Positions 47,170-55,882 of a stretch of 64,000 nt of DNA are shown here, piece after piece. Source of the DNA: Promicromonospora umidemergens (GTDB lineage Bacteria > Actinomycetota > Actinomycetes > Actinomycetales > Cellulomonadaceae); contig NZ_JAMTCT010000005.1 in the NCBI RefSeq assembly GCF_024171995.1, positions 248,001-312,000 on the forward strand, in the 5' to 3' direction. Under the pieces are notes generated by a model. That model did not search any database. It was given only the letters and a program-made list of their open reading frames with translations, and was not told the origin of the DNA. The first letter of the stretch is position 1. Every line of letters begins with the position of its first letter. The position numbers and the translations under genes are program-made.

Positions 47170-47223
47170 GTTGACGCAACAAGTAAACGGTGCCACACTC
47201 GGGATGTTGGTTGTAGGAACAAC
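47170..47223. promoter_or_regulatory. Two candidate MarR operators
   Basis: GTTG-ACG-CAAC (47170-47180) and GTTGT-AGGA-ACAAC (47210-47223) are similar dyads about 40 bases apart. One is next to the marR-type -10 box, and the other lies 17 bases before the divergent oxidoreductase start. Binding is inferred from position and symmetry. Confidence 0.6.
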
Positions 47224-47239
47224 TATCTGGGGAGTGCGC

Positions 47240-47863
47240 ATGACCACGGTCACCGTCATCGGTGCAGGAAACTTCGGCAGTGTCGTCGCGGGCGTCGCGG
47301 CGAAGGGCGGTACGGGCATCCAGGTGCTTGCCCGTGACCCCGAGAAGGCGCGCGCTGTCGCCGGCCCCCACGGCGGCACGGCAGGCACGGTCGGCGACGA
47401 GGTGACGGGCGACGTCGTCGTGCTCGCCGTCCCCTACGGGGCCGTGACGGACGTGCTGGACGCCTACCCGGACCGGTTCGACGGCAAGATCGTTGTGGAC
47501 GTCACCAACCCCGTCGACTTCAGCACCTTCGACGACCTCATGGTCCCCGCCGACTCGTCGGCCGCGAAGCTGCTGCAGGACGCAGCGCCCGGGGCGAAGG
47601 TCGTCAAGGCGTTCAACACCAACTTCGGTGGCACCCTCGCCACCGGCGAGATCGGCGCCGTGCCGACGACGGTGCTCGTCGCCGGCGACGACGCGGCCGC
47701 CAAGCAGACCCTCGTCGACCTCGTGACCGCGGCCGGGCTGCGCGGGGTCGACGCCGGCTCGCTCAAGCGGGCGCGGGAGCTGGAGGCGGTCGGGTTCCTG
47801 CAGCTGACTCTCGCCGGCGCCGAGAAGATCTCCTGGGCCGGCGGCCTCGCGCTGGTGTCCTGA
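47240..47863 (+). CDS. NADPH-dependent F420 reductase-like oxidoreductase
   Basis: This 207-residue protein is of the F420-dependent NADP oxidoreductase fold, with GAGNFGSVVAGVAAKGG binding NADP, then VVLAVPYGAVTDVL and VVKAFNTNFGGTLA. Family members transfer hydride between NADP and F420, while others use different partners. ATG 47240 has GGGGAG upstream. The stop overlaps the VOC gene start by 1 base, so both are coupled and regulated by the divergent MarR. Confidence 0.82.
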   Translation: MTTVTVIGAGNFGSVVAGVAAKGGTGIQVLARDPEKARAVAGPHGGTAGTVGDEVTGDVVVLAVPYGAVTDVLDAYPDRFDGKIVVDVTNPVDFSTFDDLMVPADSSAAKLLQDAAPGAKVVKAFNTNFGGTLATGEIGAVPTTVLVAGDDAAAKQTLVDLVTAAGLRGVDAGSLKRARELEAVGFLQLTLAGAEKISWAGGLALVS

Positions 47864-48840: not shown

Positions 48841-49626
48841 TCACTGATGGGGGACCCGCACCCCGGCTGCGCGCAGCCTCGCCTCGACGAGCGCGGTCAG
48901 CCGGGCCGACGTCGGCCACTCCTCCTGCCCGTGGGTGTTGACCATCCCGTACCGCGTAGCGGTGTCGGGCTGGGCCCGGAACCCAGCAGGCATCGCGAGC
49001 AGCTCGGGCTTGGCCAGCAGGTTGTCGGCAAGTGCGGACGCCAGCTCTTCGACCCGCGGATCGTCCGGGTCCCAGGACAGCGCGTCCCAGCTGCGCTTGG
49101 TCAGGTCGACGAACTCCGGGTCGTCCAGCCGGTGCTCCAGCTGGGTCACGAAGCTGTCGAAACCCGCGGACACCAGCGCCCGGAACAGCACCAGGGCCTC
49201 GCGCTGGCCGGCGACGTAGTCGGGGCTGAAGCCGAGCCCGCGCATCCGGTCGAGGACCGCGCACGCGCGGTCGGGGAGCAGCGCCCGGTCGTCGGCGAGC
49301 CGGTGCAGCGTGTCGCGGCGGGCGATCAGGTCCTCGATCCGGTCGGTGAGCTGCTGCTCGACGTCGGTGAGCGCCACGGCGAACCGCTCGGCGTCGGCGT
49401 CGAGCAGCGTGCCGATGTCGGCGAGCTGGACGCCGGCGGCGGCCAGCGTCCGGACCTGGACCAGCCGCAGCAGGTCGTCCGACCCGTACCGGCGGTACCC
49501 GGAGCTGTCCCGGTCCGGCTCCTCGACCAGGCCGAGCTTGTGATAGTGCCGCACGGTCTTGATGGTGACCCCGGCGAACGCCGCCGCCTGGCCGATGGTG
49601 ATGCCACCCGTCGTCCGTCCGCTCAT
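48841..49626 (-). CDS. MerR family regulator with long C-terminal domain
   Basis: This 261-residue regulator has the MerR winged helix (TIGQAAAFAGVTIKTVRHYHKLGL) and then about 150 residues of helices, longer than metal-type MerR proteins and like effector-binding (TipA-type) forms. The ATG at 49626 overlaps the stop of the upstream hydrolase by 4 bases, so the regulator is the second gene of its own operon. The operator upstream of the hydrolase fits it. Confidence 0.87.
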   Translation of the reverse strand: MSGRTTGGITIGQAAAFAGVTIKTVRHYHKLGLVEEPDRDSSGYRRYGSDDLLRLVQVRTLAAAGVQLADIGTLLDADAERFAVALTDVEQQLTDRIEDLIARRDTLHRLADDRALLPDRACAVLDRMRGLGFSPDYVAGQREALVLFRALVSAGFDSFVTQLEHRLDDPEFVDLTKRSWDALSWDPDDPRVEELASALADNLLAKPELLAMPAGFRAQPDTATRYGMVNTHGQEEWPTSARLTALVEARLRAAGVRVPHQ

Positions 49627-50453
49627 CGCCCCAGTCTGCCCTGCGCTCGCGGTGCGGCGGCGAGCTCGCGCACGGCATCGGCGACGGCGGGGGAGTCCTT
49701 GCGCAGGATGCTGCCGTGGTTGCTGGAGACCTTCGCGCTGACCCGCAGGTTCGGGTTGTCGGCCAGCAGCGGGTCGAGGGCTTTGCGCATCTGCTCCTGC
49801 AGGTCGTCGCGGCTGCCCACCGCCTCCCCGGAGGCGACGACGTACCGCGTCGGGACGGTCAGGCCCGCCAGGGTCGGGCCGAGGGCGGCGTGCAGGTGGT
49901 GGGACTCGATGGCGAGCTCTGCGTGCAGCTCGGCCGAGAACCGCCCGGCCAGGCCGAGCAGGCGGGCCAGCGGCATCATCGGCTTCATCCGGCCGAACAC
50001 CTTGCGGATCTCGGCGTGCCCGGCCTCGTCGGTCCAGCCGACCGGGTACGGACCGTCGACCCCCACGACGCCCAGGGTGCGCTCCGGGTTGCGGCTCGCC
50101 CAGTGCACCGCGAGCAGCGCACCGTAGGACCAGCCCACGAGCAGGGCGCTCTCGACGCCCCGGGCCGCGAGGACCGCGTCGATGTCGCGGACGCACACCT
50201 CGAACGAGTAGTCCGCCGACTGCTTCGACCGGCCGCGGCCGCGCTCGTCGAAGGTGATGTGCCGGTAGCCGCCGGCGAGGTCGGCGACCACGCGCCGCCA
50301 GTGCCGCTGCGAGGCGTAGGCACCGTTGAGGTAGACGACGGGGATGCCGGGGCCGCCGGAGTCGGTGACGGCCAGCGCCGTGTCGTCGACGGGGACCATG
50401 CCGGTCCAGGAGGCGCTGTTCGGACGGGGCGGGCTTGCGTCGAGGTTGCTCAT
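49623..50453 (-). CDS. Alpha/beta hydrolase
   Basis: This 276-residue serine hydrolase has a cap-less or small-cap core, with the oxyanion region LNGAYASQRHW, the nucleophile elbow GWSYGA, and a late SSNHGS histidine. The substrate is unknown. The start is ATG 50453 with GGAGG nine bases upstream. It is co-transcribed with a MerR regulator and preceded by a MerR-like dyad. Confidence 0.85.
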   Translation of the reverse strand: MSNLDASPPRPNSASWTGMVPVDDTALAVTDSGGPGIPVVYLNGAYASQRHWRRVVADLAGGYRHITFDERGRGRSKQSADYSFEVCVRDIDAVLAARGVESALLVGWSYGALLAVHWASRNPERTLGVVGVDGPYPVGWTDEAGHAEIRKVFGRMKPMMPLARLLGLAGRFSAELHAELAIESHHLHAALGPTLAGLTVPTRYVVASGEAVGSRDDLQEQMRKALDPLLADNPNLRVSAKVSSNHGSILRKDSPAVADAVRELAAAPRAQGRLGR

Positions 50454-50466
50454 GCGATGAGCCTCC

Positions 50467-50487
50467 ACCTTGACCTCGGGTCAAGGT
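50467..50487 (-). promoter_or_regulatory. MerR-type operator of the hydrolase-MerR operon
   Basis: ACCTTGACC-TCG-GGTCAAGGT is a perfect 9-bp dyad starting 14 bases upstream of the hydrolase ATG. TTGACC within it may double as the -35 box, as in MerR promoters; the -10 box is not clear. Confidence 0.6.
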
Positions 50488-50586: not shown

Positions 50587-51222
50587 TCAGCTCCGGACCT
50601 CGTCAGTCGCCGACGGCGACGGCGGCCGAGCGGGCGGCTGCCAGTGGGCGCCGCGCCGGTCCAGCTCAGCGGCCAGGTCCTCGAACGCAGCCCGGACGCG
50701 CTCCTCGTCGGCGGTGACCAGGAGGTCGACGAGCAGCCCGCGCAGCGTCGAGAGCAGCGACGTCGCCAGCGCGGTGGCCTCCGGTTCCGGGCAGCCGTGC
50801 CGCACCAGTCCCGCGGCCAGCAGAGCCGTCCGCTGCCGCATCGACCGGGCCACGGCGTCGCGCAGCCTCGGGTTGTCGTGCATGGCATGGCCGGTGATCG
50901 CGGTGAACAGCCGGATGTAGCGGCGTCCCGTGTCCGACGTCGCCCGCTGCCAGATCGTCTCCAGCGGTTCCGGGTCGTCGTCGGCCAGGTCTGGCAGCGC
51001 GAGCGACCGGGCAAGGACCAGGTCCACGATCTCGGCGACCAGCTCGTCCTTGGTCGAGAAGTGGTGCACCAGCGTCGCGTGGCTGACGCCGACCGTCTGG
51101 GCTACCTTGCGAAGCGACAGGCCGGCCAGGCCGTGGTCGAGGGCATGCTCGGTCGCGGCGCGCAGCACCTCGGCGCGGCGGTGCTCGAAGCGCAGCTTGC
51201 GGCCGTCCACGTGTTCGTTCAC
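50587..51222 (-). CDS. TetR family transcriptional regulator
   Basis: This 211-residue regulator has the N-terminal helix-turn-helix of TetR proteins (GLAGLSLRKVAQTVGVSHAT, LVHHFSTKDELVAEIV) and a C-terminal ligand domain. It starts at GTG 51222, six bases after TAGGGT, so it is leaderless. It is divergent from the secreted cutinase, separated by 117 bases containing the cutinase promoter, and could control it. Confidence 0.88.
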   Translation of the reverse strand: MNEHVDGRKLRFEHRRAEVLRAATEHALDHGLAGLSLRKVAQTVGVSHATLVHHFSTKDELVAEIVDLVLARSLALPDLADDDPEPLETIWQRATSDTGRRYIRLFTAITGHAMHDNPRLRDAVARSMRQRTALLAAGLVRHGCPEPEATALATSLLSTLRGLLVDLLVTADEERVRAAFEDLAAELDRRGAHWQPPARPPSPSATDEVRS

Positions 51223-51266: not shown

Positions 51267-51295
51267 TTGACCACTTGGTAGAGCTACTTTATCGT
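51267..51295 (+). promoter_or_regulatory. Promoter of the cutinase gene
   Basis: TTGACC (51267-51272) and TATCGT (51290-51295) have an ideal 17-bp spacer. The leader then carries AAGGGG before ATG 51340, so this is a normal leadered transcript, unlike many neighbours. Confidence 0.7.
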
Positions 51296-51339
51296 CGGTC
51301 CCGTCAGTTGTTGTCTCACCGAACTCAAAGGGGCGATTC

Positions 51340-52215
51340 ATGAGGCATCTGATCCGCAAGGCCGGTGCAGCGCTCGTGTCCGGGCTGCTGCTCGCCGGTA
51401 CCGCCGTCGTCGGCATGCCGGTCGCGTCCGCCGCCGACAACCCGTACGAACGTGGTCCCGATCCGACCGAGGCGAGCATCGAGGCTCGCCTCGGTTCGTT
51501 CGATGTCGCGGAACGCAGCGTTTCGCGCTTGGCGGTCACCGGATTCGGTGGCGGCACCATCTACTACCCGACCAGCACGGCCGAGGGCACGTTCGGAGCG
51601 GTGGCGGTCGCCCCCGGCTACACCGCGTCGCAGTCCAGCATGGCCTGGCTCGGGCCGCGTCTGGCCTCGCAGGGGTTCGTCGTCTTCACCATCGACACGA
51701 ACACCACCTCGGACCAGCCGTCCTCCCGTGGTGACCAGCTGCGGAGCGCGCTGGACTACCTGACGGCGCGCAGCGTGGTCAGCGGCCGGATCGACGCCGA
51801 CCGGCTGGCCGTCATGGGCCACTCGATGGGCGGCGGGGGAGCGCTGGAGGCGGCGAAGGACGACTCGTCGTTGCAGGCGGCCATCCCGCTGACGCCGTGG
51901 AACACGGACAAGACGTGGCCAGAGGTGAGCACGCCGACCCTCATCGTCGGTGCGCAGGACGACTCGATCGCCTCGGTCCGCTTGCATGCGGAGCCCTTCT
52001 ACGAGTCCCTGCCCGGTTCTGCCGACAAGGCTTACCTGGAGCTCCGCGGCGCCAGCCACTTCGCGCCGAGCACGAACAACACGACCATCGCCAAGTACAG
52101 CATCTCCTGGCTCAAGCGCTTCGTCGACGACGACCTGCGCTACGACCAGTTCCTGTGCCCGGCACCGTCCACGAGCACGACGATCAGCGAGTACCGCAGC
52201 ACCTGCCCGTACTAG
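51340..52215 (+). CDS. Secreted cutinase, PET-hydrolase-like polyesterase
   Basis: This 291-residue secreted alpha/beta hydrolase is of the actinobacterial cutinase (polyester hydrolase) family. The signal peptide ends near residue 31 (ASAAD). The oxyanion tyrosine is in PGYTASQSS, the nucleophile is Ser162 in GHSMGGGG, the substrate-clamping tryptophan is Trp187 in LTPWN, the acid is Asp208, and the base is His240 in GASHFAP. Cys273 and Cys289 make the single C-terminal disulfide. The [14 protein letters not shown] segment is shared by known PET-degrading cutinases. Natural substrates are probably plant cutin or other polyesters. Confidence 0.9.
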
Positions 52216-52250: not shown

Positions 52251-52306
52251 TCGAACGTAGGCCTGGTCGCTCTATGAACCCTCATAGAGCGACCAGGCCT
52301 ACGTCG
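52251..52306. repeat. Interspersed palindromic repeat, copy A
   Basis: A perfect 23-bp stem (52255-52277 with 52282-52304) and a 4-base ACCC loop begin 35 bases after the cutinase stop. The left arm reads ACGTAGGCCTGGTCGCTCTA. It may also act as a terminator; no T-run follows. The same core occurs at 46552-46638. Confidence 0.85.
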
Positions 52307-52372: not shown

Positions 52373-52789
52373 TCAGCCGTGGTTCCACGGGAAGTCGGCG
52401 TGCCACCAGCGGTGGTAGTGGTCGAGCCGGGCGGGGAACGTCGAGAGGATGCGCTCGTCGATCGCCCGGACAAGGCGCCGCAGCTCTTGAGCAGAACGTC
52501 GCGGCAGGCGATGGATCGCTTGCTCGAGGATGTCGCGGTCGTCGCGTGGGGCTCCGCAGCATCCGGAGATATCGCAGCCGTTGGATGGTCGGATCCAGGG
52601 ATTGGTTCTGCGGGCTTCGCGTTCCCAATTCTGGAGCGAGTCATGGATCTGTCCGGGCCAGTCTTCGACGCGCGCGATGGCGGCGCTGGTCGAACCGGAG
52701 AGTCGGCCATCCCTGATCGGCGCCACGCGGAGATAGTGGCGCCGTGCGGCTGCGGATCGTCGCAGCGTGGAGGGACGCCTACGCGGCAT
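52373..52789 (-). CDS. Hypothetical protein with CDISGCC motif
   Basis: This 138-residue protein was not assigned to a known family. The N-terminus is basic, followed by ARVEDWPGQIHDSLQNWE and the motif GCDISGCC with clustered cysteines. A helical stretch, LEQAIHRLPRRSAQELRRLV, and a Trp-rich end (WWHADFPWNHG) complete it. The pattern of charged helices and conserved aromatic residues makes it look like a real gene rather than a shadow. The cysteines might bind a metal. No operon partner is seen. Confidence 0.55.
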   Translation of the reverse strand: MPRRRPSTLRRSAAARRHYLRVAPIRDGRLSGSTSAAIARVEDWPGQIHDSLQNWEREARRTNPWIRPSNGCDISGCCGAPRDDRDILEQAIHRLPRRSAQELRRLVRAIDERILSTFPARLDHYHRWWHADFPWNHG

Positions 52790-53023
52790 GCCCCTTCGTC
52801 GTTATCTGCATGGCGCACATCCTGACACACCGGACGGTGGACCGGGGCCTGGCTCGTCCAAGACTGATCCGCCCGAGGAACCGGAGCCCGGGCCCCAGCC
52901 CGGTTCCGGTTCCTACCCGAGTCCAGGCCCAGCCCCGGATCCGGGTCCCGGCCTGAGTCAGAACCCAGGCCTCTACCCTGACCGGAGCCTACGTCGGAGG
53001 CCGAGATCTTGGCCTGTCCGGAG

Positions 53024-55293: not shown

Positions 55294-55882
55294 TTCCTGC
55301 GACGTCTTGCTTGGTGAACGGGTTCTTCATGGCCCGGTGGAGGCGAGGGCTGTCCCAATCTTCAAGGGTCCCGCCAGCCCCGTGGTCGACGAACGCGCAG
55401 GGGTTTGGAACGCAGGCACGTTGCATAGCCGATTATCCGGTCGGGGTTTCTGAACTGGCTGCCTTCCACGATCTCACCTGCGGGACGCGGCGAAGTCCGT
55501 ACGGCCGAGCAGCGGGGGAGCGGATGGGGACGGCCAAGAACTGCGCGCAGTACGGCAACGAAGCCGGCGCGCCGGCGAGCTCGCCGCCTACCTGAAGAAG
55601 CGCCGCCGGTAGGGCAGCAGGGGCACGCGGTCGGCTGCGCCGAGATCGCGGCACCGTCGTACCGCCAATCGTCATCGGATCGTTCGGATCGTGTCATGAC
55701 AAGGTAATGAGCGTCCAAGAATTGGCGTTCATGCCCCGGCGACCCGCTAGTGTGCCGCCATTGCCAGTTAGTGACCACACTCACAGGTCGCTTGCTGCCA
55801 AGATGCCAGTTGCGCGGTGCTACCGCGGACGCGCTGGTCACCGCTGGTGCGCTTGTCCGAATATTCCTACCCTGGAGTGACT
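55294..55882. other. Non-coding stretch before the symporter
   Basis: No convincing gene is seen in these 589 bases. A short plus-strand piece near 55575-55610 reads AGELAAYLKKRRR then stop, like the tail of an unidentified gene. It marks the boundary between AT-richer sequence and normal GC-rich sequence, so this may be an insertion scar. Confidence 0.4.

Follow-up and report, generated by a model that had tools for sequence, protein, structure and literature searches.

The window, which is the whole stretch of 64,000 nucleotides that was analysed, carries a gene for a probably secreted hydrolase of 291 amino acids and, divergent to it, a gene for a TetR-family regulator. A promoter and a proposed operator precede the hydrolase gene and a hairpin follows it (Table 1).

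Table 1. Features of the cutinase locus, in positions of the window
Feature	Position	Strand	Basis
TetR-family regulator, divergent to cutinase	50587..51222	-	PF00440 6.7e-11; model pLDDT 85.4; TetR folds Z up to 17.1
Cutinase promoter: -35 TTGACC 51267-51272, 17-base spacer, -10 TATCGT 51290-51295	51267..51295	+	Pattern scan; TANNNT in 21/22 TetR loci
Proposed TetR operator TTGACCACTTGGTAGA, over -35 and spacer	51267..51282	+	Box in 22/22 TetR loci
Probable ribosome-binding site AAAGGGG	51327..51333	+	Read from sequence
PF12740 polyester hydrolase (cutinase/lipase), type I	51340..52215	+	PF12740 E 6.1e-121; 1JFR 74%
Sec-type signal peptide, probable cleavage after residue 31	51340..51432	+	By eye; 1JFR alignment starts at query residue 33
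Nucleophile Ser162 codon (GHSMGG)	51823..51825	+	Ser in 110/110 family rows
Catalytic Asp208 codon	51961..51963	+	Asp in 110/110 family rows
Catalytic His240 codon	52057..52059	+	His in 110/110 family rows
Perfect inverted repeat, 23-base arms, 4-base loop, about 40 bases past the stop; probable terminator	52255..52304	+	Repeat found in sequence; conserved in P. iranensis

Residues 31-290 of the hydrolase match the Pfam profile PF12740 (PETase) with 403.2 bits against a gathering cut-off of 28, and positions 2-263 of the 263 in the profile are covered, which places the protein in this family. Among solved structures the Streptomyces exfoliatus lipase 1JFR is closest in sequence (3.6e-128), with 74% identity across 259 aligned positions; the figure is 56% for LCC and 51% for the Ideonella PETase (IsPETase). 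The likeness to 1JFR and to Streptomyces lipA extends to the stretch LT(G/P)WNTDKTWPE, the C-terminal cysteine pair and the triad Ser162-Asp208-His240, which is complete in the alignment. A previous interpretation of this DNA, the sequence-only reading, had proposed an actinobacterial polyesterase resembling cutinases, with a signal peptide and a single C-terminal disulfide. This assignment is borne out by the profile match. All the motifs that were quoted are present in the open reading frame, including Ser162, LTPWN (Trp187) and GASHF (His240), the end of the signal peptide (...VASA) is visible by eye, and the only two cysteines from residue 30 onward align with C273 and C289 of IsPETase. 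A single-sequence structure model of the cutinase reached a pLDDT of 37.6 and is too poor for use.

The window's own genome has one full copy of the cutinase gene. Among the best 80 of 555 relatives, the closest genes are those of two P. iranensis strains (91% and 88% identical), and this cutinase type is present in 3 of 13 genomes of Promicromonospora, the genus of the host, at 88% identity or more. A quick tree of 75 rows, with 61 Streptomyces rows thinned to a third and IsPETase set as outgroup, has long branches and several weak forks; in it the window cutinase groups with actinobacterial lipases, beside P. iranensis, and LCC, the T. fusca cutinase and the outgroup fall outside. A recent mobile element was considered as the source of the gene and rejected, as plasmid relatives are few (7 records, best 73%) and the two P. 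iranensis genomes keep the gene in the company of relatives of three window genes: the MarR gene, the one at 47171-47863 and the glyoxalase-like one. The window has in addition a MerR regulator and an alpha/beta hydrolase (48841-50468) between the glyoxalase-like gene and the TetR gene; the P. iranensis loci gave no relatives of these two at 1e-10 and have the flanking genes almost side by side. Cellulomonas cellasea (L005) carries two PF12740 genes about 5 kb apart on the same strand (G115:C16:147873-154441), 75% and 77% identical to that of the window, and its genome gave no match to the window TetR at 1e-20.

The locus is best explained as a secreted type I cutinase or lipase of the S. exfoliatus lipase branch of PF12740 whose expression is probably controlled by the divergent TetR, and confidence in this explanation is high. 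What would the enzyme act on? It is expected to cut ester bonds through Ser162-Asp208-His240, and in nature it probably acts on polyesters of plants (cutin, suberin) or on acylglycerols, while synthetic aliphatic polyesters would be side substrates. In the available part of PMC7851449, the lipase AML of Amycolatopsis mediterranei cleaves polycaprolactone and polybutylene succinate at 30 C, but not PET; a Streptomyces enzyme named as a PET hydrolase cut one ester bond of BHET, according to the accessible portion of PMC11485624. From the behaviour of these two enzymes, the natural role of the window enzyme is best read as that of a cutinase or lipase. It may also be a plain triacylglycerol lipase or esterase, with a lipid as natural substrate and only incidental cleavage of polyesters, and this alternative carries real, though lesser, weight: 1JFR was deposited as a lipase, and lipA of Streptomyces is described as a lipase gene in the part of PMC12134079 that is available. 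Against this, AML is a characterised relative that acts as a cutinase on the two polyesters named above, and the sequence itself does not decide between lipid and polyester.

The regulator scores 42.2 bits with PF00440 (cut-off 24), and its model is helical, with 2g3b as the top solved TetR fold (Z 17.1, rmsd 3.2 over 177 residues). The fold neighbours, which include multidrug, EthR2, GusR and DesT regulators, have close Z values, and thus no ligand class can be read from them. How constant is the pairing with the cutinase? In a survey from the cutinase side, which covered 79 loci from the best 80 of 555 relatives, some of them ending at contig ends, at least 7 loci hold a similar TetR (E 1e-10 or lower, 45-90% identical over the aligned part), and in all 7 it is divergent to the cutinase. 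They come from P. iranensis (twice), Kineococcus, Kineosporia, Sciscionella, Nocardioides and an actinomycete MAG; with the window, the divergent pair is thus found at eight loci (the others being L003, L004, L015, L023, L033, L036 and L069). Larger searches with the TetR alone scored 7 or 8 candidates per genome, so that the match counts are lower bounds. At class level (1e-30) at least 2 of 394 genomes match, the window's own and one with a 40% match, which has no cutinase in the surrounding 3.6 kb. In the family of Sciscionella, the Pseudonocardiaceae, the TetR was matched in at least 15 of 346 genomes (8 candidates scored per genome); regulators at least 64% identical are divergent and beside a PF12740 cutinase in nine cases out of nine, those at 35-39% in none of six. 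The Kineococcus family has the TetR in at least 7 of 12 genomes, five times beside a cutinase, once at a contig edge (L124) and once without a cutinase (L141), and within Promicromonospora the three genomes (of 13) that have it are also the three with this cutinase type. Distinct divergent pairs of this TetR and a PF12740 cutinase number 20, from at least four actinobacterial families, and the helix-turn-helix core HA(T/A)L(V/L)HHF, with the core of the recognition helix, is present in all 22 TetR rows of this type. No incongruence between the TetR and cutinase trees is claimed, because support for the deep fork in the cutinase tree is low (26/55).

The promoter is the sole promoter-like site between 50400 and 52400 (shuffles gave a mean of 0.0). 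That the cutinase has its own promoter and a divergent TetR had been noticed in the sequence-only reading; both are now better supported than its author could know, as distant relatives retain them. The first eight loci have TTGACC(A/G)NN(C/T)GGT in common in their upstream regions, most often as TTGACCAnnTGGT, and with 14 loci added later the box is found in 22 of 22 TetR loci, reading away from the TetR and into the cutinase where there is one. A -10 of the form TANNNT follows TTGACC after 17-18 bases in 21 of these, the exception being L141. Box and spacing together suggest that the candidate operator extends over the -35 hexamer into the first part of the spacer. The perfect dyad TTGACCAnnTGGTCAA occurs only in L023 and L069; the candidate operator of the window is an imperfect palindrome, its right arm differing from GGTCAA at two positions. 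A 16-base pattern, TTGACCRNNYGGTMRR, is matched exactly by 20 of the 22 loci and with one mismatch by the other two, as may be expected of a pattern drawn from these same loci. The control is the fairer gauge: among 102 cutinase upstream regions without this TetR, none came within one mismatch of it and two came within two mismatches (330 bases each, + strand; one row shorter than 200 bases was dropped, and L094, a duplicate of L005, was left out). A scan of the window's own genome at up to one mismatch gave 183 matches to the pattern (6 exact) and 92 to a reversed control; a motif this short is therefore not specific on its own. The sequence GTAGAGCTAC was tried as operator core and superseded by the TTGACC dyad, since L015, L023, L033 and L069 lack it. 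Among the papers listed by a search of the open-access literature for the operator letters, none looked relevant.

A TetR dimer is envisaged to sit on the partly palindromic TTGACCRnnYGGTNRR, over the -35 hexamer and the first bases of the spacer, where it would block RNA polymerase at the cutinase promoter; a ligand would free it from the operator and cutinase transcription would follow, the transcript ending at the 23-base hairpin. Could the ligand be a product of the enzyme? If a monomer or oligomer released by the cutinase, e.g. a hydroxy fatty acid, were to lift repression, the TetR would be a dedicated sensor of polyester products and the pair a self-amplifying circuit present in several actinobacterial families. 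This is a speculative extension, more doubtful than probable; were it true, a biosensor for the breakdown of polyesters could be built on this TetR. The presence of the box is no pointer to polyester in itself, since six Pseudonocardiaceae sister regulators, 35-39% identical to that of the window, have the same operator (five exactly, one with one mismatch, and with a -10 present) before a divergent glyoxalase-like gene (L135-L140; PF13468 was found in both of the two tested, and the frame at L138 is short, 119 aa). In two other distant TetRs, L120 and L126, the best operator match has 3 and 4 mismatches. The box therefore appears to mark a wider TetR group, of which one branch is linked to cutinases, and an operator exclusive to cutinase-linked regulators is ruled out by the same six loci. 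The dyad begins 36-37 bases ahead of the ATG of the glyoxalase-like gene in L135-L140, and the transcript of that gene is thus probably leaderless or nearly so.

Divergent TetRs often regulate their own gene. The TetR might then mainly control itself or other genes, with the conserved box being the cutinase promoter only, as the presence of a -35 within the box would allow. This is unlikely, because a -35 element alone would conserve TTGACC but not the GGT arm, which falls within the spacer and is conserved at all 22 TetR loci; because none of the 102 cutinase upstream regions without this TetR comes within one mismatch of the pattern; and because the orphan L141 retains the operator while it has no -10. 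That locus (G973) has a TetR of the cutinase-linked type, no cutinase in 3.6 kb, and a methyltransferase gene upstream on the same strand.

Control of the cutinase by the divergent TetR, the reading preferred here, sets the locus apart from the Streptomyces system. There, according to the available part of PMC12134079, lipA is followed by LipR, a LuxR-type activator of lipA, and this lipAR pair is the only in-host regulation of a PF12740 gene that was found described; in the window the probable regulator is instead a divergent TetR, its proposed operator lying across the -35. A limited search of the open-access literature found no description of a TetR-cutinase module, and titles and the beginnings of abstracts gave no cutinase, polyester or polyethylene terephthalate enzyme from Promicromonospora. 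The new part of the locus is its regulation, a TetR and a candidate operator kept across several actinobacterial families. A conserved, small and self-contained TetR-operator-cutinase unit offers a direct route to the natural inducer and hence to the natural substrate, and is itself a candidate sensor for polyester breakdown products.

PF12740 enzymes are much studied for PET recycling. Does the window enzyme stand near those that degrade PET? The sequence-only reading had credited it with PET-hydrolase features and had seen parts of it as intermediate between thermophilic cutinases and the Ideonella enzyme. Type II enzymes have Trp159, Ser or Tyr at 238, a C203-C239 disulfide and a three-residue loop extension, all of which are present in the alignment row of IsPETase. 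The alignment consisted of the window, 110 relatives and four PDB chains; L001, which is the window itself, had been removed from the relatives, as had the duplicates L082, L083 and L094. At the IsPETase positions the window has H159, H214, F218 and F238, all of type I and checked by position, and it has neither the Cys pair 203/239 nor the loop insertion, again the type I state; in its own numbering His161, Phe241 and Ala205/Ala242 stand there, with a gap at the loop, and the IsPETase-like marks are absent. With its Ser-Asp-His triad, His before Ser, Phe at 238, no extra disulfide and no loop extension, it is a further member of a known family and one more type I enzyme. Section 3.5 of PMC7851449 also sorts such enzymes into type I and type II.

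The stretch taken as intermediate recurs with its exact ten letters in one row alone among the 110 relatives, P. iranensis L003. Its DQPSSR occurs in 16 of these 110 actinobacterial relatives, Ser at the position of Leu117 in 20, and Asn after the Trp in 95. Tyr94, which aligns with IsPETase Tyr87, has a Tyr counterpart in 62. With the NCBIfam model NF051441, bis(hydroxyethyl) terephthalate hydrolase BdeA, the window scores 518 bits, 2 below the curated cut-off of 520; its P. iranensis orthologue L003 (541.5) and Kineococcus L015 (523.4) are both above it. The window resembles IsPETase (PDB 9M8H) in family, triad and the stretch TIDTN-(T/S)T-x-DQPSSR, but it lacks Trp159, Ser214, Ile218, Ser238, the C203-C239 pair and the loop insertion. 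With the type I PET hydrolases T. fusca cutinase and LCC (PDB 5ZOA, 4EB0) it shares the triad, Tyr94, Trp187 and the lack of a second disulfide; unlike them it has Asn188 where they have His, and it is little more than half identical to LCC (see above). The pocket of AML is likewise of type I, the two switch positions being His and Phe, but AML carries Phe110 in subsite I, where the window has Tyr94 (PMC7851449, available part).

That the enzyme is a PET hydrolase part-way from type I to type II, the type of the Ideonella enzyme, is very unlikely: DQPSSR is common to the window and IsPETase, Tyr94 stands where the PET-inactive AML has a Phe to which its authors point, PET-active enzymes having Tyr (available part of PMC7851449), and the terephthalate hydrolase model does give 518 bits, but that score is under the cut-off, DQPSSR is already found in 16 of 110 relatives, and a type I residue at each diagnostic position checked, with 51% identity to IsPETase against 74% to 1JFR, speaks against an intermediate type. 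The label of PET-hydrolase features can be kept as a family label and does not carry further, as the type I Amycolatopsis relative left PET film intact in the available part of PMC7851449. Tyr94, as in PET-active enzymes, would still allow some PET activity. The window enzyme is no special PET candidate.

A second PF12740 type, 62-67% identical to that of the window, is present in 10 of 13 Promicromonospora genomes and absent from the window's own (rows L084-L093). At the position of IsPETase residue 238 each of the ten rows carries Ser or Asp. Three of them, L086, L092 and L093, share Ile218 with IsPETase as well, yet keep His159 and have no Cys203. Judged by these residues, the second paralogues of the L086, L092 and L093 kind may suit the label of intermediate better than the gene of the window.

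The hairpin downstream of the cutinase has no T run and was not flagged by a terminator scan. The same hairpin is found in P. iranensis L003 and L004, where the changed bases still pair (one as U-G). Near copies with 2-3 mismatches are present elsewhere in the window's own genome, a second pair at G000:C1:222280-222323 and single arms on C5 and C24, as if they were a family of repeated terminators. LipR is a large LuxR-type protein, and an arrangement of the lipAR type is not seen here, as no listed open reading frame longer than 255 aa lies from 52216 to the transporter at 55817; the frame directly downstream of the cutinase (52373-52789, - strand) has no Pfam match. Between the cutinase region and the next genes, positions 52870-52995 hold imperfect GC-rich repeats that are rich in CCGG and GGCCC.
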